Below are positions 7,736 to 41,139 of a stretch of DNA of 64,000 nucleotides, piece by piece. Each line of letters opens with the position of its first letter. Position 1 is the first letter of the stretch. A program made the position numbers and the translations under genes. Source of the DNA: Verrucomicrobiia bacterium (GTDB taxonomy: Bacteria; Verrucomicrobiota; Verrucomicrobiia; Limisphaerales; Pedosphaeraceae); NCBI GenBank assembly GCA_036268055.1, contig DATAUW010000010.1, positions 1 to 64,000 of the forward strand. Reading direction: 5' to 3'. The notes beneath the pieces were generated by a model that did no database searches, was not told where the DNA came from, and saw only the letters and a list, made by a program, of their open reading frames with translations.

Positions 7736-9046
7736 GTGAGACGACATAAGCGGACTATCATTGCCAGGCGAAAAAAACAGGCGCGAGCGATTTTGCTTTG
7801 CCTGATGGGTGGCGCGTCCGCCGCGAGGGCGCAATCCATGTTGGCCCCGGTCGCGCCGTCTTATTCCACCACCCCTCCGGCGGTTCTGGACACAGAATTC
7901 GGAGAATCGGGCACGGTCAAAACCTGGTTGGACAATGCGCTTCCCAGTCCCGCGGATCTTTTTAATTGGGGGCCCGTAGTTTTGCATCCGCACGTGGATT
8001 ATTCAGTCACCTACGGCAGCGGACTGGAATCCCAACCGGGCGACCAGAACACGAGCGTGATTCAGCGATTCACACCGGGCGTATTGTTTAATATAGGAAC
8101 CCACTGGACATTGGATTACGCGCCGACCTTCGTTTTTTATTCAAACAGCCAGTTACGTGATGCCGTAAATCAGTCGGTGACTCTGAATTGGGGGACATCA
8201 TTCGACGACTGGAGATTGAATTTGTCTCAAAGCTATCAAAGTTCTTCCGACCCGCTGGTGCAAACCGGCACGCAAACCGCTACCGAAAATTATAACACGA
8301 TCCTGGATGCCTCGTACGCTTTCAATAGCAAGATGTCGGTTGACTTGAATTTTAATCAATCCGTCAATTCCGCCGATCAGTTTTCGAGTTCGACCACTTG
8401 GAATACACTGGACTATCTCAATTACCAATTCTGGCCGCGCCTGACGGCGGGTGTAGGATTGGGTGTCGGTTATGATAGTGTCAGCAATGGCCCCAACATG
8501 TCGCATGAGACGGCCCAGGTCCGGGTGGATTGGCGGGTGGCCAATAAATTGAGTCTCAACGTGCATGGCGGCGGTGAAGACCGGCAGTTTATCCATAGCG
8601 ACGAAGGAAACTTGATCAGCCCGACCTACGGCGCGGCCATTGTCTATACCCCCCTGGATTTTACGGCCATCAATTTGTCGCTGGATCGCAATGTTTCGCC
8701 CGCCATCACGACGGGTGCGCAAGCTTCGGATGCGACTACTCTTTCCCTTAGCTTGAACCAGCGATTGTTAAAACGCTTGCAGCTTTCGGTAATAGGAACT
8801 TACATTCGATCAGAATACATCAACTCTGTAAGCGGACCACTGGCGCTGAATTTTCCGCTATCAGCGGCGGTGTTCAATCAAAGCCGCACCGACACGTATT
8901 ATTCATTGAATACGCAACTCAGCCTCACGCTTTTACGGCGGGTGGTGTTGTCCGGCACCTACCAATATAGCGAAAACATGTCCACGGTCGCCGGCTTCGG
9001 CTTTTCGAGCAGCCAGGTTGGAATTGACATCAGTTATAGATACTGA
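7736..9046 (+). CDS. Outer-membrane beta-barrel protein of the exosortase/EPS locus
   Basis: 436-residue exported protein. A GTG at 7736 gives a signal peptide with a basic start (MRRHKRTIIARRKKQ), a short hydrophobic core and an ARA-QS cleavage site. An ATG further upstream would overlap the dehydrogenase gene and give no signal. The mature chain alternates aromatic and polar residues in strands of about 10, such as LDYAPTFVFYSNSQL, and ends SSQVGIDISYRY, an aromatic C-terminal strand as in outer-membrane barrels. It is similar in style to the barrel proteins encoded beside exosortases and EPS export genes, where they are thought to act as polysaccharide or protein channels. The role here is inferred from position. 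Confidence 0.75.
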   Translation: MRRHKRTIIARRKKQARAILLCLMGGASAARAQSMLAPVAPSYSTTPPAVLDTEFGESGTVKTWLDNALPSPADLFNWGPVVLHPHVDYSVTYGSGLESQPGDQNTSVIQRFTPGVLFNIGTHWTLDYAPTFVFYSNSQLRDAVNQSVTLNWGTSFDDWRLNLSQSYQSSSDPLVQTGTQTATENYNTILDASYAFNSKMSVDLNFNQSVNSADQFSSSTTWNTLDYLNYQFWPRLTAGVGLGVGYDSVSNGPNMSHETAQVRVDWRVANKLSLNVHGGGEDRQFIHSDEGNLISPTYGAAIVYTPLDFTAINLSLDRNVSPAITTGAQASDATTLSLSLNQRLLKRLQLSVIGTYIRSEYINSVSGPLALNFPLSAAVFNQSRTDTYYSLNTQLSLTLLRRVVLSGTYQYSENMSTVAGFGFSSSQVGIDISYRY

Positions 9047-9098
9047 TGGTCGGGGACGCCGGTTGCGTTGTTCGAGGAGCACGAAGTTCTACTCTTTT

Positions 9099-10055
9099 AT
9101 GCACACAGAAAAAATAACTCGCCTGGAGGAGAAGTCGAATCCGGCGCCGATGGCATCCGGAGTGATGGGAAATCCGCCGTTCGCTCAGGAGCGCGGATAT
9201 TTGCCGGCGCTGTTGATAGTGCTGGCCTGTTTTGCCATTCCCTTGTGGCGGTTGGTGATGTTCGCGTTGCACGACGATTTATATTCGTACGTTTTGCTGT
9301 TGCCGTTCGTGAGCTGGTATCTGGTGCGCACCAAGCCACCGCAAGCGCTGGCGGCGTCAAAACCATTGCGGCCGCTCGGCGTGATTTTAATATTAGCGGG
9401 CGCGGCGGTGGGAGTGGGTTACCTGATGAAGGGCGCCGGTTTCACGACGGCGTACGCGGAAGATTATTTGTTCGTGAACATCCTGGCGTTCTATCTGTGC
9501 TTTCTGGGCGTGAATTTTCTGTTCCTCGGGCGGGCGACTTTGCGCGCACTGGCTTTTCCCGTGGGGATGCTGGCGTTCATGATTCCAATGTCGCTGGCGA
9601 TGCGCACCAGTTTGGAGACTTTCCTGCAATACGGCTCGGCTTACTGCGCTGATGGGATGTTCCGGCTGGCGGGCACCACGTTTTTTCGCGAGGGGCTGCT
9701 TTTTCATCTGCCGAGAATCAATATCCTGGTCGCGCCGGAATGCAGCGGCATTCATGCGAGCTGGATTTTGCTGATCACCAGCTTGCTGGCGGGTTATCTG
9801 TTTCTGGACACGATGTGGCGGCGAACGCTGTTGGCGGTATTGGTGTTGCCGCTGGCGCTGGTGAGAAATGGCTTCCGCGTTTTCACCTTGGGAGAACTTA
9901 GCATCCACATCAGTCCGGCGGTGATGGACTCGCCCATCCACCATCAGGGCGGGCCCCTATTTTTTGGAATCTTCATAGTGCCATTTTTTCTATTGCTGAT
10001 ATGGCTCAGGCGTTCGGAGCGTCCGCGCGCAAAAACCGAAACGCAAAAAAATTGA
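9099..10055 (+). CDS. Exosortase (transmembrane transpeptidase-like sorting enzyme)
   Basis: 318-residue inner-membrane protein with about eight hydrophobic helices. The three residues expected in exosortases are present: Cys215 in PECSGIHAS, Arg260 in NGFRVF and His281/282 in SPIHHQGGPLFF. Exosortases recognise a C-terminal PEP-CTERM-like signal, cleave it and probably attach the protein to a surface polymer. It lies between the outer-membrane barrel and a TPR lipoprotein, inside the polysaccharide operon. The nearest target genes (14.9 and 16.5 kb) carry a PDGG rather than a PEP motif, so a relation to the VPDSG-specific XrtC type is plausible but not proven. ATG 9099 was chosen; ATG 9150 would remove only a polar N-terminus. 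Confidence 0.93.
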   Translation: MHTEKITRLEEKSNPAPMASGVMGNPPFAQERGYLPALLIVLACFAIPLWRLVMFALHDDLYSYVLLLPFVSWYLVRTKPPQALAASKPLRPLGVILILAGAAVGVGYLMKGAGFTTAYAEDYLFVNILAFYLCFLGVNFLFLGRATLRALAFPVGMLAFMIPMSLAMRTSLETFLQYGSAYCADGMFRLAGTTFFREGLLFHLPRINILVAPECSGIHASWILLITSLLAGYLFLDTMWRRTLLAVLVLPLALVRNGFRVFTLGELSIHISPAVMDSPIHHQGGPLFFGIFIVPFFLLLIWLRRSERPRAKTETQKN

Positions 10056-10066
10056 TTGAGAAAAGC

Positions 10067-13000
10067 ATGAAAAAATTATCCCGATTCATTGTTCCATGCC
10101 TGTTGCTGTTCGTGCTGGCGGCGGCGGGTTGCTCCAAAAGGTCGCGCGAAGCGAAGTTTCTCCAGCGTGCGGACAAATATTTTGCCGCGGGTGATTACGA
10201 CAGCGCGGAACTGGAGTACATCAACGCCCTGCGGATCAATCATCAATCCGCCCGGGCTTACGGGCGGCTGGGCATCATCTCGTTCGAGCAGGGCCGCTTG
10301 CAGCGGAGCTATTCGCTTTTGCTCAAGGCCTGCCAGTTGGAGACGAACAACATTGATTTCCGCCTGGAACTGGGATTGTTCGATCTTTCAGCCGGGCGGC
10401 GTGAGAAAGCCCGTGAAGAAGCGATGTTCGTGTTGAGTCATCGCCCGGATGATCCGCAAGCGCCGGGTTTGCTCGCCGATGCGGCCGAGACGTCTCGACA
10501 GATGGACCAGGTAAAGGCTTTTCTGCAAAAGCTAAACGTGCCGCCGGCCAGAAGCGCCCCGATCGAGACGGCCATCGGTGAAATGGATTTGCGCGAGCGC
10601 AATCAGACCGAGGCGCTGGCCGCGCTCCAAAGGGCCAAGACTGCCGATCCAAAATACGAGCCGATGTACGATGCGCTGGCGAACTATTATTGGTCGGAGA
10701 AAGATCTCAAACGCGCTGATGAGGCCTTCAAGGCGAGCATTGAAACCGCGCCGCCGCGGTCCGTGCGCCGGTTGAAATACGCGCAGTTCAAGATTCAGAA
10801 CGGCGATATTCCCGGTGCACGGCTGATACTGGAAGAGAGCATCAAGAAAGCGCCGGATTATATGCCGGCCATGACGACCCTCGCGGGCGTGGACGTGGCG
10901 GAGAAAAAATTCGATTCCGCCAACGAATGGCTCGGCAAGGTGTTGGCGCGCGATCCGGACAATTACGAAGCGCTGCTCATGAGTGGCCGCCTGGGGTTGA
11001 TGGTCAACGAACCGGACAAAGCGGTGGCGCAGTTTGAAAAAATGGCGCGCGCTTATCCGAAAACACCGCAGGTCATGTATCAGCTTGGCCTCGCGTACAA
11101 TGCCGCCGGTGATACGACCAAAGCGTTCGCCACGCTGAACCAGATCGTCAATCAAAACACCAATTTTTACCAGGCCATCCTCGCGCTCGCGCAAATGAAA
11201 GTGGCCAAGGGTGATTTGAATTCCGCCGTCGTCTCGCTGCAACAAATCCTTCAGCAAAAACCAAAGATGCCGGAAGCCCAGCTCATGCTGGCTGATACTT
11301 ACCGTTTGCAAGGCGATCTCGAAGCCTCGGCAAAAGTCTATCGCCAGGTGGAGCAGGAATTTCCGGACAACGCGCAGACGCCCGTGCTGCTGGGCGTGGT
11401 CCTGATGCGGCAGCAGAAATGGCCGGAAGCGCGCCAGGAATTCAACCGGTCGCTTGCCCTCGCGCCGGATTATTTTTCGGCGCTGGAAGGGCTGACCGAT
11501 CTCGACCTCCAGGAACGAAAATTCTCTGACGCGCGGGACCGGGTAGAGCGGGAGATGCAGAAGAACCCGAAAGATCCGCAGCCCACTTTGCTGCTGGCGA
11601 AAATCAATGTGCTCGACAACAAAGTGCCCGAAGCCGTGGCCGCCCTGCAAAAGGCGATTGATGCGCATCCTGAATTCCTCCAGGGCTCGTTCACGCTGGC
11701 GGAAGTGTACGCGGATTCCGGACAGAACCAGAAGGCGATGGATACCATCCGCGGAATTGTGTCCAAGCATCCCGATCAGATCGGTTCGTGGCTGTTACTG
11801 GGCATGATCGGCGACAAAATCAAGGACTACAAAGTGTCCGTGGAAGGATACCAAAAAGTCATCGAACTGGATCCCAAACGCAGCGTGGCCCTTAACAACC
11901 TGGCCGTGCTTTATTCTGAGCATGGCGAATTGGACAAGGGCTATGACATGGCCCGCCGCGCCCGCGAATTGCTGCCGTATGAAGGTTCCACGGCCGACAC
12001 TCTGGGCTGGATCGTTTACAAAAAAGGTGATTACGCGCAGGCGGCGACACTGCTGCGCGAAAGTGTCACGCAACAGCCCAACGCCCCGGATGTGCAACTC
12101 CATTTCGGCTTGGCGAGCTACATGACTGGTGATGAAGAAAACGCGCGCCCCGCTTTGCAATACGCCGTGAAAGTTCTGACCCAGGCGAAGCTGCAGATCG
12201 AAGGCCAGGACGTCGCCCAACAACGGCTGGCGACGCTGGCGATTGACCCGCGAACCGCCGGGCCCGAGGCAAAAGCGGCCTTGGAAAAACAAGTGGCCGC
12301 GCAACCGGACGACCCGGTGGCGTTAAACAAGCTGGCGTTCATGTACGTTCGTGATGGCGCCGCGGACAAGGCTGTCAGCGCATACGAATCAGTCCTCAAG
12401 GCGAACCCAAAAAATGTGCCGGCAATGGTCCAGTTGAGCCGTCTCTACGCCGCGCAGCCTAACCAGACAGACAAGGCTCTGGCGCTCGCCAAGGAAGCTT
12501 ACAAACAGTCGCCCACGATGTCCGGCGTCGCGCAAACCTTCGGTCACATGTCATTGGTTTCGGGCGATTACAAACTCGCATTGAACTTGTTGACGGACGC
12601 CGACCGCCAGAAACCGGGCGATCCGGATTTGCTTTACGACCTCGCGCAGGCGGCGTACGGCGAAGGCCGCGTGGTGGACGCGCAATCGTATTTGCAGACG
12701 GCGTTACAGAGCGGTTCCAATTTTGCGCGCGCTGCGGAAGCAAAACATTTTCTTGATTTGGTGATGCTTTCGTCTGACCCCGCACGAGCCACGGCGGGCG
12801 CGTCCACGGTGGATGAGACTTTGAAGAGCAATCCCAAGAGCGGTCCGGCCTTGATGGCGATGGGCCTGATTGATGAACAGAAATCCGATTTCAGCGGCGC
12901 GATCGAGAATTATGACAAGGTGCTGGATCTTTATCCCGATTTTTCGCCGGCGCGGCGGCGGCTGGCGATCCTTTACGCGAACCAGCCCGGCGTGGATGAC

Positions 13001-13300
13001 AAAAAGGGTTATGACGTGGCGGTGAAAGCGTATCTCGCGTATCCCGACGATGCGGATGTCTCGCGGGCGCTGGGGATTTTATTGTATCGCCAGGGTGAGT
13101 TCACGAAATCTTCGCAACGGCTTAAGGACGTGCTGGCGAAGAAAAATAATGACGCGCTGGTGAATTATTATCTCGGCATGGACCAGTATCAACTCAAGCA
13201 GCGCGCGGAGAGCAAAAAGAATTTGCAGCGAGCGGTGGAATTGAAACTGCCCGAGAAACAGGCCGCGGAAGCCCAGCGCGTGCTGGTGGAATTGAAGTGA
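10067..13300 (+). CDS. prsT: PrsT-like TPR lipoprotein of the exosortase system
   Basis: 1077-residue lipoprotein. The signal peptide MKKLSRFIVPCLLLFVLAAA ends in a lipobox with the acylated cysteine of AAGCSK. The rest is a long run of tetratricopeptide repeats, for example AKFLQRADKYFAAGDYDSAE and later GEFTKSSQRLKDVLAKKNN. This matches the PEP-CTERM-system TPR lipoprotein PrsT, which accompanies exosortases and is thought to be a periplasmic scaffold for polysaccharide export. It is longer than the roughly 900 residues I recall for the family. The start is ATG 10067, preceded by GATTGAG, 11 bases after the exosortase stop. An upstream frame start at 10001 overlaps the exosortase and lacks a signal. 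Confidence 0.85.
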   Translation: MKKLSRFIVPCLLLFVLAAAGCSKRSREAKFLQRADKYFAAGDYDSAELEYINALRINHQSARAYGRLGIISFEQGRLQRSYSLLLKACQLETNNIDFRLELGLFDLSAGRREKAREEAMFVLSHRPDDPQAPGLLADAAETSRQMDQVKAFLQKLNVPPARSAPIETAIGEMDLRERNQTEALAALQRAKTADPKYEPMYDALANYYWSEKDLKRADEAFKASIETAPPRSVRRLKYAQFKIQNGDIPGARLILEESIKKAPDYMPAMTTLAGVDVAEKKFDSANEWLGKVLARDPDNYEALLMSGRLGLMVNEPDKAVAQFEKMARAYPKTPQVMYQLGLAYNAAGDTTKAFATLNQIVNQNTNFYQAILALAQMKVAKGDLNSAVVSLQQILQQKPKMPEAQLMLADTYRLQGDLEASAKVYRQVEQEFPDNAQTPVLLGVVLMRQQKWPEARQEFNRSLALAPDYFSALEGLTDLDLQERKFSDARDRVEREMQKNPKDPQPTLLLAKINVLDNKVPEAVAALQKAIDAHPEFLQGSFTLAEVYADSGQNQKAMDTIRGIVSKHPDQIGSWLLLGMIGDKIKDYKVSVEGYQKVIELDPKRSVALNNLAVLYSEHGELDKGYDMARRARELLPYEGSTADTLGWIVYKKGDYAQAATLLRESVTQQPNAPDVQLHFGLASYMTGDEENARPALQYAVKVLTQAKLQIEGQDVAQQRLATLAIDPRTAGPEAKAALEKQVAAQPDDPVALNKLAFMYVRDGAADKAVSAYESVLKANPKNVPAMVQLSRLYAAQPNQTDKALALAKEAYKQSPTMSGVAQTFGHMSLVSGDYKLALNLLTDADRQKPGDPDLLYDLAQAAYGEGRVVDAQSYLQTALQSGSNFARAAEAKHFLDLVMLSSDPARATAGASTVDETLKSNPKSGPALMAMGLIDEQKSDFSGAIENYDKVLDLYPDFSPARRRLAILYANQPGVDDKKGYDVAVKAYLAYPDDADVSRALGILLYRQGEFTKSSQRLKDVLAKKNNDALVNYYLGMDQYQLKQRAESKKNLQRAVELKLPEKQAAEAQRVLVELK

Positions 13301-14734: not shown

Positions 14735-14750
14735 CGTCGGTTTTCTTTAC
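14735..14750 (+). promoter_or_regulatory. Candidate activator-binding box (PrsR site), copy 1
   Basis: CGTCGGTTTTCTTTAC occurs here and, identical over all 16 bases, at 16281-16296. Its first base is 117 bases before the GG of a sigma-54 promoter; at the second gene the distance is 116. The surrounding sequences are otherwise unrelated. Distance and conservation fit a binding site for a sigma-54 enhancer-binding protein. PrsR, encoded at 25.7 kb, is the candidate. Confidence 0.7.
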
Positions 14751-14850
14751 GGTTTTGGAGCTTAGAAATGAGTCTGTCCAGAAATCAATATAATTTATAA
14801 CGTGTTTAGTTAAAGCATATTATAAAAATAGTATTCCCTTGAAAAATACT

Positions 14851-14866
14851 TGGTATGGCATGTGCT
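14851..14866 (+). promoter_or_regulatory. Sigma-54 (RpoN) -24/-12 promoter of the first PDGG-CTERM gene
   Basis: TGGTATGGCATGTGCT has GG and GC separated by exactly 10 bases, the sigma-54 hallmark, and matches TGG-Y-A-Y-G...TGCT. Transcription would start near 14877, giving a leader of about 37 bases to ATG 14914. The same element, differing only in three central bases, precedes the paralogue at 16465. Confidence 0.8.
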
Positions 14867-14913
14867 GAATGTCCAGTGTCGAAGAGAATATAATAATTCA
14901 AAAAACAAAAACT

Positions 14914-15531
14914 ATGAAGCAATGGATTAAACTTACTGTTCCGGCGGTTGCGATGGCACTGGCTGGATTTACTGCGAGCGCGAACGACATCACTGGCACG
15001 GTCAATATCGGCGGTTCCGTGGATTTCAATTCTACGGATTTGACGATGGCGACGATGGCCTCGTTTCCCACCGCAGGCCTTGTGGTCTCCGGAACCGATT
15101 CTTTTGCAACTGCCTTTGGCGCTTCGGTTACTTTTAAATCGTTCACGTTCCTTCCGCTGCCTCAGCCGGCCACTCCGATTGACAGCATCTGGTCTTTCAC
15201 CTCGGGTGGTTTGACCTATGCCTTCAATCTCGTGAGCATCGCCGACGCCGGTGTGACTGGTCCTATGGGCGGCCCTGTGACTGCTGGCCAAGCTGAATTC
15301 CTTCAGATTGACGGCAGCGGCACCTTGGACATCACCGGACCTGGCAGCACGTTTGACGAGACTCCCGCTAGCTGGAGCTTCTCCGTCACCCAAGCTGCTG
15401 GTGCTGCCCAGACCACGTTCACGTTCGCATTCTCGGACTCGAACAACTCCCTGCCTGACGGCGGCATGACGGTTATGATGCTCGGCGCGGCTTTGACCGG
15501 CCTCGGCTTCATCAAGCGCAAGCTCGCCTAA
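14914..15531 (+). CDS. Exosortase target protein with PDGG-type C-terminal sorting signal
   Basis: 205-residue exported protein. The signal peptide MKQWIKLTVPAVAMALAGFT ends near ASAND. The mature region is rich in Gly, Ser, Thr and Asp with no enzyme motif. The C-terminus is tripartite like PEP-CTERM signals: motif SLPDGGMTV, a hydrophobic helix (MMLGAALTGLGF) and a basic tail IKRKLA. PDGG in place of PEP resembles the VPDSG-CTERM variant. It is a paralogue of the protein at 16465, with shared TP-x2-W-x-FS and GPGS/GPAGS segments. A longer frame from 14869 would start upstream of the predicted transcript start. It is likely induced through PrsR/sigma-54. It has its own terminator, so it is monocistronic. 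Its role in the envelope or in the extracellular matrix is unknown. Confidence 0.88.
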   Translation: MKQWIKLTVPAVAMALAGFTASANDITGTVNIGGSVDFNSTDLTMATMASFPTAGLVVSGTDSFATAFGASVTFKSFTFLPLPQPATPIDSIWSFTSGGLTYAFNLVSIADAGVTGPMGGPVTAGQAEFLQIDGSGTLDITGPGSTFDETPASWSFSVTQAAGAAQTTFTFAFSDSNNSLPDGGMTVMMLGAALTGLGFIKRKLA

Positions 15532-15560
15532 TTAGGCGCGATATTCTCTTCGAAATTTAA

Positions 15561-15592
15561 GGGCAGGAATAATATTCCTGCCCTTTTTCTTT
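15561..15592 (+). terminator. Rho-independent terminator
   Basis: GGGCAGGAAT-aat-ATTCCTGCCC forms a 10-bp stem with a 3-base loop followed by TTTTTCTTTTTTT. It lies 30 bases after the PDGG-CTERM gene stop. Confidence 0.92.
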
Positions 15593-15599
15593 TTTTCTT

Positions 15600-16120
15600 C
15601 TTCCTTCGCAATACCCGGGGCCTCATTGTCTAAATTAATTCCATTGTCAGGTCGAGAAGCCGGCTTTGACCAGGGTAAAGTTGCCAACTCAGGTTAGCTT
15701 CTCCGTGAAGCCTCTGCCGTTCTGTAGCGTTTCCACAAATGGTGAGGTGGGGCGAGTTTCCTCAGAGCAACATCATCTCGGAATCTCAACGAGATTCTGG
15801 CCCAAAGCCCAAGGGTACGCCGTTCATCGGCGCGCTGCATCACCAACTCTCCGGGATAGCCTCTTTCGATGCCAGCTGATCGGATCACGCTTTTGCCAGC
15901 TCGAAGTTCCACCATTAAAAATTTCGTCTCAAGCCAGAGGGGATGCGTTACGTGAAGCGGGAGCGGCTGCCTAATCAGCAAAGTTTTTTCACACCAGCCG
16001 GGATAATAATATATGCTCGACAAAATTCCTTGTGGAGGCAAATCATTCTGTTTGGAGAATCCTCCAATTTTTTATACCTGCGGACGTTCATTTATAATCG
16101 TCGGACTTTTTTACATTTAA
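15600..16120. other. Non-coding stretch, content unexplained
   Basis: About 520 bases between the first PDGG-CTERM terminator and the regulatory region of the second gene. Open frames exist on both strands (about 100-115 codons), but neither reads like a known family and neither has a ribosome binding site or coupling to a neighbour. A 7-bp hairpin GAATCTC-aac-GAGATTC sits at 15781-15797. It could be a decayed gene or a longer dispersed repeat with no second copy in this window. Confidence 0.5.
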
Positions 16121-16123
16121 GTT

Positions 16124-16371
16124 ACGGATTTACATCCGTGATGAATTCATAAATGAGAATTAAGTTTGTGTTATGGATGGCGTAATTTATTATGTATTAA
16201 TCATTTACGTATGCTTATAATTCATCTGCTTACGTCCGTAACCTTCGCCATCCAAATTCGCATTGTTAATCAGAGAACGGCGTCGGTTTTCTTTACAATT
16301 CCAACTTTTTTATCAAGGCTGAGAAAAATATTTATTGACTTATAATTCATTTATTTGTAATAAGTTACGTA
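16124..16371 (+). promoter_or_regulatory. AT-rich region with repeated TTACG words upstream of the second PDGG-CTERM gene
   Basis: The region holds ACGGAT-ttac-ATCCGT (16124-16139), TTACGTAT at 16205, the palindrome TTACGTCCGTAA (16230-16241) and GTTACGTAT at about 16364. It also has a 12-bp direct repeat CTTATAATTCAT at 16214-16225 and 16339-16350, and GGATGGCG/CGCCATCC flanking arms (16175-16182, 16246-16253). The density of small symmetrical words in front of a regulated gene suggests protein-binding sites. The binding protein is unknown. Confidence 0.4.
16281..16296 (+). promoter_or_regulatory. Candidate activator-binding box (PrsR site), copy 2
   Basis: Exact second copy of CGTCGGTTTTCTTTAC, 116 bases before the GG of the sigma-54 element at 16396. 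The almost constant distance to the promoter in two otherwise different upstream regions is the main support. Confidence 0.7.
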
Positions 16372-16395
16372 TCCACGAATAAGGTGCAGGAGGGG

Positions 16396-16411
16396 TGGTA
16401 TGGCTAATGCT
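16396..16411 (+). promoter_or_regulatory. Sigma-54 (RpoN) promoter of the second PDGG-CTERM gene
   Basis: TGGTATGGCTAATGCT carries GG-N10-GC and is the same as the element at 14851 except for the three central bases. Transcription would begin near 16422, about 43 bases before the start codon. Confidence 0.8.
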
Positions 16412-16464: not shown

Positions 16465-17055
16465 ATGAGTATGAAAAAGAGCATCACAGCGGTCGCTGCA
16501 AGTCTTATCGCCCTCGCCACCGCGAGCGCTGATCCCATCTCGGGCAGTATTGCCTTTACCGGGGGAGTCACTTTGGATACCCAAGATGCGGGTACTGCCA
16601 TCAAGGTCATGCAATGGACGAGTGCGACGGGTCCGGGCATGCCTACCGTATTGAGTGACACAGGAAGCTTCGCGGCATTCGTGGCGCCTGGAACGGCTGC
16701 CGCTTTTAACCCGGCGTGGCTGTTTGATACCACTTCGCAAGTCAATAATTTTTGGTCGGTAGGCGGATTTGTTTTCAATCTTGTTTCGTCCCAGATCACT
16801 TCCCAAAAGGTCGGCGTGGGCGTGACGGTTTCCGGCATGGGTTTCATCACTGGACCTGCGGGTTCGGGTTTGGATTCTACTCCGGGCACGTGGACCTTTT
16901 CCGCGACGGATCCGGCCACGGGCATGTTCGATGAAAATACTCCTATCTTCACTTTTCAAGGGTTGACTCCGGCCCCGGACGGCGGCATGACGTTGGTACT
17001 CCTTGGCGCTTCGCTTTCTGGCCTCGCATTGGCCAAACGCAAAATCAAAGCCTGA
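16465..17055 (+). CDS. Exosortase target protein with PDGG-type C-terminal sorting signal (paralogue)
   Basis: 196-residue exported protein (ATG 16465, or ATG 16471 two codons later). The signal peptide MKKSITAVAASLIALATASA ends before DPISG. The mature part is low-complexity and shares TP-x2-W-x-FS and a GP-x-GS segment with the protein at 14914. The sorting signal is APDGGMTLV, hydrophobic LLGASLSGLAL, then basic AKRKIKA. No catalytic motif is visible. It is preceded by a sigma-54 promoter and the 16-bp box and followed by its own terminator, so it appears to be an independently transcribed member of a PrsR regulon. No Shine-Dalgarno sequence is visible in the A-rich leader. Confidence 0.88.
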   Translation: MSMKKSITAVAASLIALATASADPISGSIAFTGGVTLDTQDAGTAIKVMQWTSATGPGMPTVLSDTGSFAAFVAPGTAAAFNPAWLFDTTSQVNNFWSVGGFVFNLVSSQITSQKVGVGVTVSGMGFITGPAGSGLDSTPGTWTFSATDPATGMFDENTPIFTFQGLTPAPDGGMTLVLLGASLSGLALAKRKIKA

Positions 17056-20408: not shown

Positions 20409-21434
20409 TCAAGCCTTTTTTCGAACCTCGTTCACCCACGGCTGGTTTGCCAGATACCATTGCACCGTCTCGCGGATGCCCGTTTCAAACGTATGCGCCG
20501 GAACCCAGCCGAGTTCGTTTTTGATTTTGGCCGCATCAATAGCATAGCGACGGTCGTGCCCAAGGCGGTCTTTGACGAAAGTAATAAGCTGTCGGGAATT
20601 GCCGCCGCTCTGTGGTGACAACTCGTCAATCAAATCGCAAATCAAATGCACGATGTGAATGTTCGCCCATTCATTATGCCCGCCGATATTATAAGTTTCG
20701 CCATTTTTGCCGCCAGTAAGCACTTGCCAAAGCGCCTCGGCATGGTCGCGCACATAAAGCCAGTCGCGGATGTTCATGCCATCGCCGTAAACGGGAATCG
20801 CCTTGCGCGCGAGCACGCTCTGAATGACGACGGGAATCAGCTTCTCAGGAAATTGCAGCGGCCCATAATTATTCGAGCAATTCGTGATCACGACCGGCAG
20901 GCCATAAGTGTGATGATACGCGCGCACGAGCAAATCGCTGGAGGCTTTGCTGGCAGAGTAGGGGGAGTTGGGCGCGTAAGGCGTGGTCTCCGTAAAAAAT
21001 CCCGTCGCACCAAGGCTGCCGTAAACTTCATCCGTCGAAACGTGATGAAAACGATTTCCGGCGGGCGCTTTGCTGGAATCCTTAAGCCACGCTGCGCGGC
21101 ACGCCTCGAGCAAATGAAACGTGCCGACGATATTCGTGTGCACAAAATCACCAGGGCCGGTGATGGAACGATCCACGTGCGATTCCGCCGCGAGGTGCAT
21201 GACGTTCGTCACCGAATATTTTTCGACGACCTGCAACACGGCCGGCTTGTCGCGCAAATCTATTTTCTCGAAAACGTATTTTGGATGGCGCGAAACTTTT
21301 TCAAGGTTCGCGAGGTGCCCCGCATAAGTCAGGCAATCCAAATTGATCAGCCGCGTGATTTCCGGCCGCTCGATGATGTGATGAATGAGGTTGGAGCCGA
21401 TGAAACCCGCGCCGCCAGTGATTAAAAGATTCAT
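20409..21434 (-). CDS. rmlB: dTDP-glucose 4,6-dehydratase
   Basis: 341-residue extended SDR enzyme converting dTDP-glucose to dTDP-4-keto-6-deoxyglucose in the cytoplasm. [14 protein letters not shown] is the NAD-binding GxxGxx[24 protein letters not shown] (Thr-Asp-Glu catalytic triad part) and [13 protein letters not shown] (YxxxK) are all intact, and [14 protein letters not shown] is the typical RmlB signature. It is the last gene of a three-gene leftward operon, starting 2 bases after the reductase stop. ATG 21434 replaces an upstream in-frame start that would overlap the neighbour. Confidence 0.96.
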
Positions 21435-23280: not shown

Positions 23281-23587
23281 GTCCGCGAAAGCTAAACCGC
23301 GTTGGCAAAAATGAAAAGAAAAAGTTGAATTTGACCCTCGCAAAATATAGCCCTTCGCAAAAACAGCCCGCCATAAAGATACAAATAACATAAAAAGTTG
23401 AAGAAAAGTGCATCCTTAACTGAATCGAAAATCGTTCTTCGTTAAATAAGTGAATAGGATCGGCAAAATGCCGGTGCGTTTGGAAAGAAAGTGCCGTTTT
23501 TGCGTGATTTTTCTATGGTTTTAAGTTACAGGTTGGGCTCGACGCCATTTGTGTTCAAATTGGTGGAAAGGTAACGCATATATATAT
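23281..23587. other. Divergent promoter region between rmlA and prsK
   Basis: About 300 bases that must hold promoters for both directions. A small hairpin CGGCA-aaa-TGCCG is at 23461-23473. A (TA)n run directly precedes the prsK start codon, and GGAAAGG lies at about 23566-23572. No sigma-54 GG-N10-GC element and no copy of the 16-bp box were found here. Confidence 0.45.
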
Positions 23588-25705
23588 ATGACCGACGCGA
23601 GCAACGCCGCGATCCTGGCCCTTATCGCCGCCTTCATTGGCGGGGCTATGGCATTGGGCGCGGCCAGCCAGGCCCGGCGCTCGTTGAGCCACTGGACGTT
23701 TGTCGTCGGCATGCTTTTGCTCGCCGGCGAAAGCGGGTTCAGTTGCCTCGGTCTATTCGCCGGGCAAAACGGCAATCTTGCGGGAGTAGTCCATTGGCAA
23801 ATCTGGCAGGACTTTTTCACCTCACTTCTGCCGGGCGTTTGGTTGTTCTTCAGCCTTATCTATGCGCGCGGCAATTCCCGCGAATTTTTAAAGTATTGGA
23901 GATATACCCTGATTGCGGCGCTGGTTCTCCCCGCCGGCCTGGCTGTTGGTCTTCGCGAAGGATTGTTGGTGGCCGTACAGGTGAAAGAGAAGTTGACGCT
24001 GGGCTGGTCAAATGCCGGCATGCTGCTGCATCTTTGTGTGCTGCTCAGTTCCGTGCTGGTCCTGATGAATCTGGAGCGTACCTTCCGCGCGACCGTCGGC
24101 ATGATGCGCTGGCGAATCAAGTTCATGGTGCTTGGCCTCGGCGCGCTTTTTCTCGCGCGGATTTACACCAGCAGCCAGATACTTTTATTTCATCATCTGG
24201 ATCCCTCACTCGACGGCGTGAATGCCGGCGCGTTGCTGGTCGGCTGTTTTTTGATCCTGCGCTCGCTGATGCGCTCCGGCCATTTCGACGTCAATGTTTA
24301 TCCCTCGCATTCGGTCATCCACAATTCACTGATTCTTTTGCTTGGCGGTGTGTATCTGCTGGTGGTCGGATTGCTGGCCAACATCGCGCGCCTCTTCGGC
24401 GGCAATACTTCCGTGACACTTTCCGCATTCGTGCTGCTGGTCGGGTTGGTATTGCTGACGGTGGTGTTGTTGTCCGACCGGGTGCGGCTTTACTCCAAGC
24501 GTTTTGTCAGCCGCCATTTTCAACGGCCGATGTACGATTACCGCACGGTGTGGCGGCGCTTCACTGAATGCACGACGTCGCGAATGGACCAGATGGAACT
24601 GTGCCGCGCGACGGTGAAATTGGTGGCTGAAATTTTTCAACTGCTTTCCGTCAGCATCTGGCTCGTAGATGAAAAAAAGACAGACCTAATTTTCGCCGCT
24701 TCGACTTCACTTTCGGACAGCCACGGCGCGGAATTAACACCGCCGAGCATCGCGGCACTGGAAATCCTGACTGCGCTTCGAGACCATCCTGAGCCAATAG
24801 ATATCAATGTTTCAAAAGAGACTTGGGCGGCGACCTTGCGGAACTGCCATCCCGATGAATTTCACAAGGGTGGGGGACGCATCTGCGTGCCAATGATCGT
24901 GGGCGGTGATGTGCTGGGCTTCATGACGCTCGGCGATCGCATCGGCGGGTTGCCGTTCATTCATCAGGACCTGGATTTGCTCAAATGCGTAGGCGATCAG
25001 GTCGCCGCGAGCCTGCGCAATCTGCAACTCTCTGGAAAATTATTGCAGGTGAAAGAACTGGAAGCGTTTCAAACCATGTCCGCTTTTTTCGTGCATGATT
25101 TGAAAAATACCGCTTCGACCCTTGGCCTGATGCTCAAGAATCTGCCGATTCATTTCAACGACCCGGCGTTTCGTGAAGACGCCTTGCGCGGCGTCGCCAA
25201 GACCGTCACGCATATTAATAATCTCATTAGCCGGTTAAGCCTCCTGCGGCACGGTTTGGAAATTCGCCGCGCCGAAGCCGATTTGAATGACGTCGTCAAC
25301 AAGGCTCTCGCCGCGCACAAGGGCACAATCGAAGTGGAAGTGCTCAAAGACTTCCAGCCGCTGCCAAAAATTTCGATTGATCCCGAGCAGGTGAACAAGG
25401 TCATCACCAATCTCGTGCTCAACGCGACCGAGGCGGTCTCGAAGCAGGGCCAGGTGCGCATCCAGACCAGCCGTGTAAACGGTTGGGCGGTGCTCGCCGT
25501 GGCCGACAATGGCTGCGGCATGAGCCCGGAGTTTTTGAATCGCTCGCTCTTTCGTCCGTTTCAGACTACGAAGAAAGCCGGACTTGGTATTGGCATGTTT
25601 CAGAGCAAAATGATTATCGAAGCCCACGGTGGGCGGATCGAAGTGGAAAGCCAGCCCGGCAAAGGCACCACCTTTCGTGTGCTGCTGCCCATGAATTTAA
25701 AATAA
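23588..25705 (+). CDS. prsK: PEP-CTERM-system sensor histidine kinase PrsK
   Basis: 705-residue membrane histidine kinase. The first about 320 residues hold roughly eight transmembrane helices, then a GAF-like region (LVDEKKTDLIFAAST ... CVGDQVAASLRN). The phospho-acceptor His503 is in FFVHDLKNTAS, and an HATPase domain follows with the N box NLVLNATEAV, G1 DNGCGM and G2 KKAGLGIGMFQ. The architecture of an N-terminal multi-pass domain, GAF and kinase, directly before a sigma-54 activator, is that of PrsK of exosortase systems. It is adjacent to prsR with no gap (TAA then ATG), so the pair is co-transcribed. The signal sensed is unknown. ATG 23588 follows a TA repeat. Confidence 0.9.
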   Translation: MTDASNAAILALIAAFIGGAMALGAASQARRSLSHWTFVVGMLLLAGESGFSCLGLFAGQNGNLAGVVHWQIWQDFFTSLLPGVWLFFSLIYARGNSREFLKYWRYTLIAALVLPAGLAVGLREGLLVAVQVKEKLTLGWSNAGMLLHLCVLLSSVLVLMNLERTFRATVGMMRWRIKFMVLGLGALFLARIYTSSQILLFHHLDPSLDGVNAGALLVGCFLILRSLMRSGHFDVNVYPSHSVIHNSLILLLGGVYLLVVGLLANIARLFGGNTSVTLSAFVLLVGLVLLTVVLLSDRVRLYSKRFVSRHFQRPMYDYRTVWRRFTECTTSRMDQMELCRATVKLVAEIFQLLSVSIWLVDEKKTDLIFAASTSLSDSHGAELTPPSIAALEILTALRDHPEPIDINVSKETWAATLRNCHPDEFHKGGGRICVPMIVGGDVLGFMTLGDRIGGLPFIHQDLDLLKCVGDQVAASLRNLQLSGKLLQVKELEAFQTMSAFFVHDLKNTASTLGLMLKNLPIHFNDPAFREDALRGVAKTVTHINNLISRLSLLRHGLEIRRAEADLNDVVNKALAAHKGTIEVEVLKDFQPLPKISIDPEQVNKVITNLVLNATEAVSKQGQVRIQTSRVNGWAVLAVADNGCGMSPEFLNRSLFRPFQTTKKAGLGIGMFQSKMIIEAHGGRIEVESQPGKGTTFRVLLPMNLK

Positions 25706-27073
25706 ATGAACCCAAAATTACTGATTGTTGACGACGACGAGGAAATCCGCACGCAGATGAAATGGGCGCTGGCGCAGGATTACGAAATCCTGCTGGCCCA
25801 GGACCGGCCGAGCGCGCTTGAGCAATTCCGCGCCGCGCATCCGGCAGTCGTGCTGCTTGATCTCGGCCTGCCTCCGCATCCCGGCAATCCCGAGGAAGGG
25901 CTCGCCACATTGTCCGAGTTGCTCGCGGCGGACGTGTCCACGAAGGTGGTCATCGTCAGCGGACAGGGTGAAAAAGAAAATGCGTTGCGGGCGATTGGTT
26001 CGGGTGCGTACGATTTTTTGGGCAAGCCGGTGGACGTCGAGGAATTGAAATTATTGCTTCGCCGCTGCTTTCACGTCGCGCATCTCGAAAAAGAGTATCG
26101 CGCCATGCAGCGCCTGATGCAGGGTTCGGGATTCGAGGGGATGATCGGCAACAGCACGCGGATGCAGAATGCTTTTGACTCGATCCGCAAAGTCGCCACG
26201 GCGGACGCGCCGGTGCTCATCCTCGGCGAGAGCGGCACGGGCAAGGAACTCGCGGCTCAGGCCATACATCGCAAGAGCAATCGCAAGGACGGCCCGTTCA
26301 TCGCGATTAATTGCAGCGCGATTCCCGAAACGCTGCTCGAGAGCGAATTGTTCGGTCACGAGAAGGGCGCGTTCACCGGCGCAACCGGTCAAGTGAAGGG
26401 GCGCATTGAGACCGCGAATGGGGGCACGTTGTTCCTCGACGAAATTGGGGAAATCCCATTGCCGATCCAGGTGAAGCTGTTGCGCTTTCTTCAGCAGAAA
26501 ACCATCGAGCGCGTTGGCGGCCGTGCCGAGATCACGATTGATGCGCGCGTCGTCGCGGCGACGAATGCGGATTTAAAAAAAGGCATGACCGACGGCACGT
26601 TTCGTGAGGATTTGTTTTATCGCCTCGCGGTCATCCAGATCGTGCTGCCGCCGTTGCGTTCGCGCGAAACGGACATTCAGCTTCTTGCGCAATCGTTCCT
26701 CCAGCGGTTCGCCGCGGTGAACAACAAGTCCGGCCTCGTGTTCGGGCAGGAAGCCCTGCGCGCGATCAACCAGCACAAGTGGCCGGGCAACGTGCGCGAA
26801 TTGGAAAACCGCGTCCGCCGCGCTGTGATCATGGCTGAGGGCAAACGTCTCACCGTCGCTGATCTGGAATTGTCTGATGTGCTGACTGCGCCGCAGGCGT
26901 CCACGCTCAAGGATGCGCGCGAAGGTTTGGAACGAAATATGATCCAACAATCCTTGCGCAAACACGGCGGCAAGATCACGCCAGTGGCCGCCGAGTTGGG
27001 CATCAGCCGTCCGACGCTTTACGAGTTGATGGATAAACTGGGGATTGTGCGCGAGGCGAAAGAGGCTTCATAA
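25706..27073 (+). CDS. prsR: PEP-CTERM-system sigma-54 response regulator PrsR
   Basis: 455-residue transcriptional activator. The receiver domain has acidic D9-D11 and phospho-acceptor D52 (LLDLGLP), with K in FLGKPVD. The AAA+ domain has Walker A GESGTGKE (about 174-181), the sigma-54-contacting loop GAFTGA (221-226) and LFLDEIGE (Walker B). The C-terminal Fis-type helix-turn-helix is KITPVAAELGISRPTLYELM. This is the AtoC-like organisation of PrsR, which activates exosortase-target genes with RpoN. The two PDGG-CTERM genes at 14.9 and 16.5 kb have matching sigma-54 promoters plus a shared upstream box, making them likely targets. A copy of its last 213 bases lies at 27862-28074. Confidence 0.93.
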   Translation: MNPKLLIVDDDEEIRTQMKWALAQDYEILLAQDRPSALEQFRAAHPAVVLLDLGLPPHPGNPEEGLATLSELLAADVSTKVVIVSGQGEKENALRAIGSGAYDFLGKPVDVEELKLLLRRCFHVAHLEKEYRAMQRLMQGSGFEGMIGNSTRMQNAFDSIRKVATADAPVLILGESGTGKELAAQAIHRKSNRKDGPFIAINCSAIPETLLESELFGHEKGAFTGATGQVKGRIETANGGTLFLDEIGEIPLPIQVKLLRFLQQKTIERVGGRAEITIDARVVAATNADLKKGMTDGTFREDLFYRLAVIQIVLPPLRSRETDIQLLAQSFLQRFAAVNNKSGLVFGQEALRAINQHKWPGNVRELENRVRRAVIMAEGKRLTVADLELSDVLTAPQASTLKDAREGLERNMIQQSLRKHGGKITPVAAELGISRPTLYELMDKLGIVREAKEAS

Positions 27074-40267: not shown

Positions 40268-41139
40268 AGCATTTCTGGCATCATTCCGCATCAAGCTTTT
40301 TTCGACGCGCCTTCTCGCTGATCGAAATCATGGTCACCGTGGCGCTCCTCTCGGTCATCATCCTTGGCCTCGTCGCCATGTTTGACCAGACCCGGCGCGC
40401 TTTTACTTCCAGCATCACGCAAGTGGATGTCCTGGAATCCGGACGCGATGCCACCGCTCTCATCGCGCAACAGATGGAACAAATGGCCGCCAGCAGTATT
40501 TCCACCGGCGTGAATTTTTTCGTCGAAACCCCTTCCACCGCGCCGCCCATGACCCAGGCGTTGGTGGATCCATCCGACGTCAGGACGAATATCCTGCAGG
40601 ATGTGTTTTTCCTCACGCGCCTCAACCAAACCTGGACCGGTGTGGGCTATAAGGTATTTAACTCAGGCGGAACCACCGGCGGCAGTCTTGGGACGCTCTA
40701 CCGTTATGCCGGTGTTAATATTCCCGCGACGAACGGTTTTTTGATTGGGCAGCAATGGACGAATTTCAACCTCGGCGCGCCCGGCACGAATTTTACTCGC
40801 ATCGTGGATGGCGTCGTTGATTTTACCATCCGGGCTTATGACACGAACGGAAATTTATATCCGTTCATCACCACGTTTCCCTCAATCTCCACGAATTATT
40901 TGTTTCCCCTGCAAAGCTCATGGTACTACCGGTTCACCAGCAATTCCCTGCCGGCTTATGTCGAAGTAGAGCTTGGCGTCTTGGAAGACCGGACTCTCGC
41001 ACGTTATCAAGCCATTGCCGGCCCCGCGAACATCAATTTAACTGCCGCCAATAATTATCTCGCCGACCACCCCGGCCAGGTTCACGTTTTCCGCCAACGC
41101 ATCCCCATTCGTAACGTCAGTTCCGCTGCCTATCAATGA
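40264..41139 (+). CDS. Verru_Chthon cassette protein C-like pseudopilin (GspJ-type)
   Basis: 291-residue prepilin-like protein. The leader is followed by AFSLIEIMVTVALLSVIILG, then QVDVLESGRDATALIAQQME, a GspJ-like helix. The globular part has YVEVELGVLEDRTLARYQAI and ends HVFRQRIPIRNVSSAAYQ, matching the GspJ pattern of a late strand before the C-terminus. The ATG overlaps the upstream stop, and its own stop overlaps the next start. Confidence 0.78.
   Translation: MKHFWHHSASSFFRRAFSLIEIMVTVALLSVIILGLVAMFDQTRRAFTSSITQVDVLESGRDATALIAQQMEQMAASSISTGVNFFVETPSTAPPMTQALVDPSDVRTNILQDVFFLTRLNQTWTGVGYKVFNSGGTTGGSLGTLYRYAGVNIPATNGFLIGQQWTNFNLGAPGTNFTRIVDGVVDFTIRAYDTNGNLYPFITTFPSISTNYLFPLQSSWYYRFTSNSLPAYVEVELGVLEDRTLARYQAIAGPANINLTAANNYLADHPGQVHVFRQRIPIRNVSSAAYQ

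Follow-up and report, generated by a model that had tools for sequence, protein, structure and literature searches.

A putative PrsR activator site upstream of VPDSG-CTERM genes in Verrucomicrobiota and its likeness to the proteobacterial PEP-CTERM box

Exosortase locus and two boxed promoters

The window, the whole 64-kb stretch of DNA that was analysed, carries glycosyltransferase and nucleotide-sugar genes in addition to an exosortase locus. The exosortase (9018..10055, + strand) exceeds the cut-off of the general signature (TIGR04178, 57.6 bits, cut-off 23) and is nearest to XrtC, its best subfamily match (TIGR04151, 273.1 bits) lying below the cut-off of 300. The locus also encodes a PrsT-like TPR protein (10001..13300, +; TIGR02917, 495.5 bits, cut-off 312.2), the histidine kinase PrsK (23549..25705, +; TIGR02916, 422.6 bits, cut-off 300) and the response regulator PrsR (25706..27073, +; TIGR02915, 609.5 bits, cut-off 502.6), which is the proposed reader of the box described here. 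PrsR consists of a receiver domain, a sigma-54 AAA+ domain (Sigma54_activat) and a Fis-type helix-turn-helix (HTH_8).

The products of two further genes are predicted to be secreted and carry PDGG tails. Gene 2 (16465..17055, +) encodes a VPDSG-CTERM protein recognized by both TIGR03778 (23.4 bits, cut-off 22) and PF18205 (25.1 bits, cut-off 25). Gene 1 (14914..15531, +) is its tandem paralogue (36% identity, E 1e-17), with a VPDSG-CTERM-like tail that scores below the same cut-offs (15.8 and 21.2 bits). The start of gene 1 was set at 14914 because an ATG at 14869 would precede the expected transcription start. Both genes have good sigma-54 promoters: the -24/-12 site TGGTATGGCATGTGCT for gene 1 (14851..14866, +; GG at 14852) and TGGTATGGCTAATGCT for gene 2 (16396..16411, +; GG at 16397). 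Each shows GG-N10-GC geometry in a TGG...GCT context, and RpoN is encoded elsewhere in the genome (433.9 bits, cut-off 277.35). The two promoters are nearly identical and have TGGTATGGCNNNTGCTGAA in common.

The initial annotation described an identical 16-bp box, CGTCGGTTTTCTTTAC, at 14735-14750 and 16281-16296, beginning 117 and 116 bases before the promoter GG, and exact matching confirms both copies and both distances. There is no third exact copy in the 64-kb window, and, for the 250 bp upstream of each gene, only ~7e-7 common 16-mers would be expected with offsets no more than 1 bp apart. Both 16-bp copies are thus real, but the actual site is degenerate and extends over 17 nt. It comprises CGTCGGTTTTCTTTACG upstream of gene 1 (14735..14751, +; 23.3 bits by position weight matrix) and CGTCGGTTTTCTTTACA as the proximal box of gene 2 (16281..16297, +; 24.4 bits), with 116 and 115 bp, respectively, between box start and the T of TGG. 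A distal box of gene 2, CGTCGGACTTTTTTACA (16099..16115, +; 22.3 bits), lies 182 bp above the proximal box in the same orientation, and its positions 16099-16114 show three mismatches to the exact 16-mer. The ~860 bp from the end of gene 1 to the gene 2 promoter (15532-16395), which include the distal box, contain only short mechanical ORFs of 102 and 115 aa. Five further matrix matches above 11 bits occur in the window (12.1–18.1 bits; at 40521, 42544, 43256 and 57180, and at 20991 on the minus strand), and these are taken as chance because none has a sigma-54 site within 200 bp. The matrix scan at the same 11-bit threshold shows no box upstream of prsK/prsR (23549).

Identical boxes before tandem paralogues could be the mere remnant of a duplication of gene and upstream region, with no regulatory meaning. 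Because the genes are paralogous and the promoters nearly identical, a single duplicated promoter is probably the ancestor of both upstream regions, the spacer having since eroded. The intervening sequences show no likeness beyond that of shuffled sequence, in line with the initial annotation: their local score is 12.0 compared to 11.3 ± 2.3 for shuffles, and 205 of 500 shuffles score at least as high. The initial annotation had overlooked that the genes are paralogues, and its statement that this is no simple duplicated upstream region is corrected accordingly. A mere remnant would not be expected to keep box and promoter when its spacer diverges to the level of shuffled sequence, and the same 17-nt motif is found at ladder distances before other CTERM genes of this genome and before gammaproteobacterial PEP-CTERM genes. 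Duplication was rejected as the whole explanation of the motif on the basis of this recurrence, and a remnant lacking regulatory meaning is highly improbable. Duplication may nonetheless explain the identical middle bases of the two boxes, which may be inherited rather than required.

Motif and target genes in Verrucomicrobiota

To avoid circularity, the motif was sought by an unseeded count of all trinucleotide dyads in 320 bp of upstream sequence, with expectations from dinucleotide shuffles. The set consists of 47 upstream regions from other verrucomicrobial records (67 PrsR-related loci), remaining from 59 CTERM frames near PrsR once PEP-type tails, frames below 110 aa, upstream regions below 320 bp and frames with no signal-peptide-like start had been dropped. 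The dyad GTC-N9-TAC ranks first, occurring in 36 of 47 regions (1.9 expected), and after its shifted forms come sigma-54 promoter dyads such as TGG-N10-GCT (32 of 47). A matrix built from these regions reads YGTCGGANNNNYTTACA; it is 17 nt long with a YTTACA end, and a box exceeds the threshold in 40 of the 47. The motif, YGTCGG-N6-TTACA with the last base sometimes G, is looser than the 16-mer, and both window boxes end in TTTAC followed by G or A. Strict boxes precede 15 of the 59 CTERM frames near PrsR and the reversed pattern precedes none. Among the copies in the window's own genome the middle varies. The box had been described as not obviously palindromic, which is true of its asymmetric inside, but the ends (YGT...ACR) form an inverted repeat. 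A TGT...ACA frame is common among sites of Fis-type activators (PMC6615313), and this answers the concern over the missing palindrome.

Since the middle of the box is free, the exact 16-mer is the wrong model for a genome-wide search. With up to three mismatches it gives 102 matches against 88 for the reversed control, no clear enrichment, and it was rejected. The pattern CGTCGG-N6-TTAC gives 26 matches in the same genome against 13 for its control; by hand count 16 of these precede CTERM genes, two form an orphan pair and eight lie elsewhere. One of the 16, at C41:224110 (minus strand, locus L011), falls inside a mechanical ORF, and here the box and a sigma-54-like site, AGGCATGGCGGCTGCT, precede a protein with an APDATG tail. 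This protein is absent from the TIGR03778 matches, so the target set in this genome probably exceeds 15. The orphan pair (C27:118080-118095 and 118171-118186, minus strand, loci L004 and L245) consists of boxes 91 bp apart with a sigma-54 site at 116 bp. The pair stands upstream of an ORF of 74 codons whose N-terminus is signal-like and whose R/P-rich tail shows no CTERM motif; this ORF is a candidate for a PrsR target outside the sorted proteins.

The initial annotation had made its reading depend on enrichment of the box upstream of other exosortase targets, and such enrichment is present. TIGR03778 matches at 15 places in the window's genome (E ≤ 1), 11 of which have an upstream box. Boxes accompany 11 of 12 PD/PEAT-type tails and none of three PEP-type tails, and the unboxed twelfth PD/PEAT-type case, a frame of 111 aa, resembles a remnant. 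In another PrsR-bearing genome, G223, with 38 TIGR03778 matches, the box was found before 2 of the 18 CTERM genes examined (part of loci L132–L161), and most of its sorted proteins seem to be under other regulation. In four more PrsR-bearing genomes the box precedes 7 of 26 CTERM genes, after short or partial frames at 4 of 30 TIGR03778 loci had been set aside. Box and sorting are thus only partly coupled, and the proposal that a box precedes every sorted-protein gene was rejected given the count in G223. The motif provides a sequence handle for listing those surface proteins that are switched on together.

Association of the box with PrsR

Across the order, 32 of 116 genomes encode a PrsR above the cut-off. 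Strict boxes number 71 in these 32 genomes (13 for the reversed-pattern control) and 24 in the 84 PrsR-lacking genomes (control 29). At least one box occurs in 24 of the 32 genomes with PrsR and in 19 of the 84 without it (Fisher p 3e-7). This comparison is limited by variants that escape the strict consensus, by incomplete genomes among those classed as PrsR-lacking, and by the relatedness of genomes, which makes them non-independent. Removal of the window's own genome leaves 64 boxes against 13 controls in 31 genomes. The strict-consensus box is absent from 8 of the 32 PrsR-bearing genomes of the order, and three PrsR-lacking genomes from the same family as the window hold 1, 0 and 0 boxes.

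The surroundings of the boxes show the same association, with 2 of the 88 box places read from a neighbour's region. Here as elsewhere in the analysis, home-made heuristics were used to score sigma-54 sites, detect CTERM tails and choose starts. The 64 places in other PrsR-bearing genomes include 41 with a sigma-54 site 50–260 bp downstream, 33 with a CTERM gene and 29 with both, compared to 5, 5 and 4 of the 24 places in PrsR-lacking genomes. Three of these last four are in genomes 76–82% complete and one in a genome 97% complete. By hand count, 11 of the 64 places fall inside stop-to-stop frames of at least 150 codons, as opposed to 17 of the 24.

The box might instead be read by another of the genome's Fis-type enhancer-binding proteins, its association with PrsR being indirect. 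A second NtrC-type regulator (C32:31500) reaches 425 bits against the PrsR model, a first look gave 101 candidates, and many Fis-type activators share sites of the form TGT-N10-12-ACA in the accessible text of PMC6615313. However, box counts track PrsR above the curated cut-off rather than NtrC relatives generally. In a phylum sample of 240 genomes, 151 have a relative at E ≤ 1e-120 and five have PrsR above the cut-off; boxes occur in four of these five (14 boxes, 0 controls) and, by hand count, in 38 of the remaining 235 (48 boxes, 63 controls). A point against the association with PrsR is that five genomes whose PrsR-like loci are filed under non-verrucomicrobial titles or are distant matches show no enrichment (2 boxes, 2 controls).

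The DNA-binding helix also differs between PrsR and the one paralogue aligned. The alignment retained only frames with matches to Walker A and GAFTGA/GAFTDA: 33 frames from 70 verrucomicrobial loci plus that of the window, 11 from 13 proteobacterial loci, and one paralogue. The motif LG..RPT.Y, which is matched by LGISRPTLY of the window's PrsR and is common to proteobacterial PrsR, is more than 85% conserved in both phyla (34 verrucomicrobial and 11 proteobacterial sequences). The single aligned non-PrsR paralogue has MSRRTLHRKL instead. The DNA-binding region of the window's PrsR is as a whole just 30–42% identical to the 11 proteobacterial sequences. PrsR genes 60–64% identical to that of the window occur at loci L093, L107, L098 and L114, in records assigned to Porticoccaceae, Gammaproteobacteria, Planctomycetes and Pirellulales, which may reflect transfer or mis-binned contigs.

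Box, promoter and regulator, and their association genome-wide and between phyla, are thus read directly from sequence. An enhancer for a Fis-type activator, with PrsR as the candidate, had been put forward as the simplest reading; the co-occurrence with PrsR, together with the cross-phylum dyad described below, supports it. A reader other than PrsR is unlikely, and the box is very probably a PrsR upstream activator site, the verrucomicrobial form of the PEP-CTERM box.

Cross-phylum recurrence, distance ladder and known systems

The same dyad is recovered in Proteobacteria. Upstream of PEP-CTERM genes, mostly from PrsR-bearing Gammaproteobacteria and partly the best-scoring among the matches listed, GTC-N9-TAC is again first, in 46 of 59 regions (2.1 expected), and sigma-54 dyads are among the leading dyads in the sets of both phyla. 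The search covered 20 of 63 PrsR-bearing gammaproteobacterial genomes, 18 of which gave matches, and 40 additional proteobacterial regions were the best-scoring among the matches listed; assignment of this second set to Gammaproteobacteria rests on the class of one genome, G356 (locus L107). In a plasmid of Vibrio alfacsensis, a PEP-CTERM gene near prsT, prsK and prsR has TGTCGATATATTTTACA 89 bp before TGGTATGCATATTGCT. With the same top dyad in gammaproteobacterial PEP-CTERM upstream regions, the box matches motif 1 of Haft 2006 (PMC1569441), to the extent that the accessible text defines it, and the comparison with published PEP-CTERM boxes proposed in the initial annotation thus has a positive outcome. 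Identity with motif 1 was judged by length, 3' end and the motif re-derived in Gammaproteobacteria.

The orientation of the box relative to the promoter is strongly preferred, with 60 same and 4 opposite in Verrucomicrobiota and 57 same and 0 opposite in Proteobacteria (verrucomicrobial-trained matrix). The distance had been described as constant. This holds for the two copies in the window, but their value is one rung of a ladder of ~11-bp steps, in favour of which a single constant distance was rejected. Rungs lie at about 80, 90 and 102 bp in Proteobacteria and at 103, 116, 126 and 138 bp in Verrucomicrobiota. From box start to the T of TGG, distances are mainly 102–105, 113–119, 124–128 and 134–140 bp in Verrucomicrobiota and 69, 78–83, 88–92, 102 and 112–114 bp in Gammaproteobacteria, and off-rung distances exist (134, 144). 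The distance is ~30 bp longer in Verrucomicrobiota (120.0 versus 89.4 bp), with a mean spacer of 103 nt for 37 verrucomicrobial and 72 nt for 35 gammaproteobacterial promoters.

Periodicity was tested for any period of 9.5–12.5 bp against a null of ±8 bp jitter. The null reached the observed value in 0 of 4000 trials for 35 verrucomicrobial distances near PrsR (R 0.73; 2 of 37, 61 and 231 bp, left out), 0 of 4000 for 35 gammaproteobacterial distances (R 0.78), 5 of 4000 for 28 order-wide distances (R 0.57; 13 of 41 left out at 55 or above 165 bp, partly distal boxes), and 16 of 4000 for 11 own-genome distances including the window's two. At least one genome, recognized by its identical promoters, belongs to both the order-wide and the near-PrsR set. 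Removal of repeated promoters, which left 62 of 64, gave 0 of 3000 in each of two groups, and the control distance from promoter to ATG gave 295 and 174 of 3000. Box-to-box distances show a weaker tendency: 7 of 4000 for 17 verrucomicrobial pairs, 74 of 4000 for 12 proteobacterial pairs and 0 of 4000 pooled, with pairs closer than 40 bp left out (3 verrucomicrobial, 1 proteobacterial). Ten own-genome pairs lie outside this test, and two of their distances, 180 and 182 bp, fit an 11-bp ladder poorly. The best periods range from 11.05 to 12.30 bp by set, all above the 10.5-bp helical repeat of relaxed DNA, and at a period of 11.2 bp the ladder phases of the two phyla differ by ~2 bp, so the two may not strictly follow one common ladder. 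Preferred orientation and ~11-bp quantisation are both features of the sequences themselves, and what recurs in two distant phyla looks like the same site, placed at nearly whole helix turns from the promoter.

A 15-bp G...C core with an AT-rich middle is reminiscent of Fis-family sites, and the 17-mer could be conceived as an architectural (IHF/Fis-like) site or as a repressor operator near the promoter. Its position ~100 bp upstream, phased to the promoter in one preferred orientation with no promoter overlap, and its co-occurrence with PrsR make such a role very doubtful. As a PrsR activator site, the degenerate 17-bp YGTCGG-N6-TTACA would be bound by a PrsR dimer through its Fis-type helix-turn-helix, and its AAA+ ring would assemble once PrsK had phosphorylated it. 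The intervening DNA of ~100 bp would loop so that the ring could remodel sigma-54 polymerase at the -24/-12 site, and single genes for exosortase-sorted proteins would be switched on. A short, stiff loop would require the two sites to lie on facing sides of the helix, and the permitted distances would then differ by whole helical turns; as ~100 bp cannot twist cheaply, selection would keep both sites on matching faces. We infer PrsR binding, phosphorylation and looping, as well as co-expression with exopolysaccharide. The ladder makes the loop geometry at sigma-54 enhancers testable, with 11-bp insertions predicted to be tolerated and 5-bp insertions not.

More tentatively, and with slightly more doubt than confidence, PrsR regulation can be viewed as an enhancer architecture that is transferable and has its loop hard-wired. 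An asymmetric box in one orientation, whole helical turns away from the promoter (and, with less certainty, from a second box), would have been kept in two phyla with different exosortase/tag pairs, the number of turns being shifted by 2–3. If this is true, PrsR promoters would represent a natural multi-phylum experiment on the evolution of short enhancer loops. Among the literature matches listed, with subscription journals mostly outside their scope, neither the box in Verrucomicrobiota nor a distance ladder for PEP-CTERM promoters was found described.

A PrsR enhancer site was already suggested in Haft 2006 (PMC1569441), where PrsR was proposed as the binder of motif 1. In the accessible text of that study, motif 1 is a 17-nt sequence ending in TTTACA, followed by the sigma-54 motif 2, and it precedes 99 of 167 proteobacterial PEP-CTERM genes and is found in no other phylum of that set. 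The verrucomicrobial box is likewise 17 nt long, ends in TTTACA, is sometimes repeated and is followed by a sigma-54 site; in both cases the operons are mostly single genes for sorted proteins and occurrence matches that of PrsR. Unlike the set of 2006, limited to Proteobacteria as far as that text goes, the present examples are from Verrucomicrobiota, with an exosortase nearest to XrtC, VPDSG-type tails and quantised distances. The spacer from motif 1 to the sigma-54 site averaged 62.8 nt (range 32–92) in the 2006 set, and the window's 98–99 nt falls outside this range, which is descriptive and is not taken as defining. The PEP-CTERM box and PrsR regulon, described for Proteobacteria and PEP-type tails, are thereby extended to Verrucomicrobiota and to VPDSG-type tails.

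Three other systems bear comparison, each on the accessible text of its source. The Fis-type activator sites of Clostridiales, FhlA and NifA (TGT-N10-12-ACA; PMC6615313) have the same TGT...ACA ends and similar spacing, whereas in the PEP-CTERM box the inside is asymmetric (CGG / TTT) and a single orientation is preferred. The pepA gene of Aquincola tertiaricarbonis (PMC9850573) is a PEP-CTERM gene in a genome that, like the window's, has prsK/prsR, and it has a mapped start, -24/-12 motifs, RpoN1-dependent transcription and a predicted upstream enhancer; it is proteobacterial, and its experimental evidence concerns RpoN only. At the LuxO-driven qrr enhancers of Vibrio (PMC4740811), sigma-54 loops of ~80–120 bp are clustered in ~11-bp steps, and helical tolerance at sigma-54 enhancers therefore has a precedent. 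The clustering of enhancer distances is alike in both, but qrr/LuxO has a different activator and site within one genus, while here another activator is associated with the ladder in two phyla.
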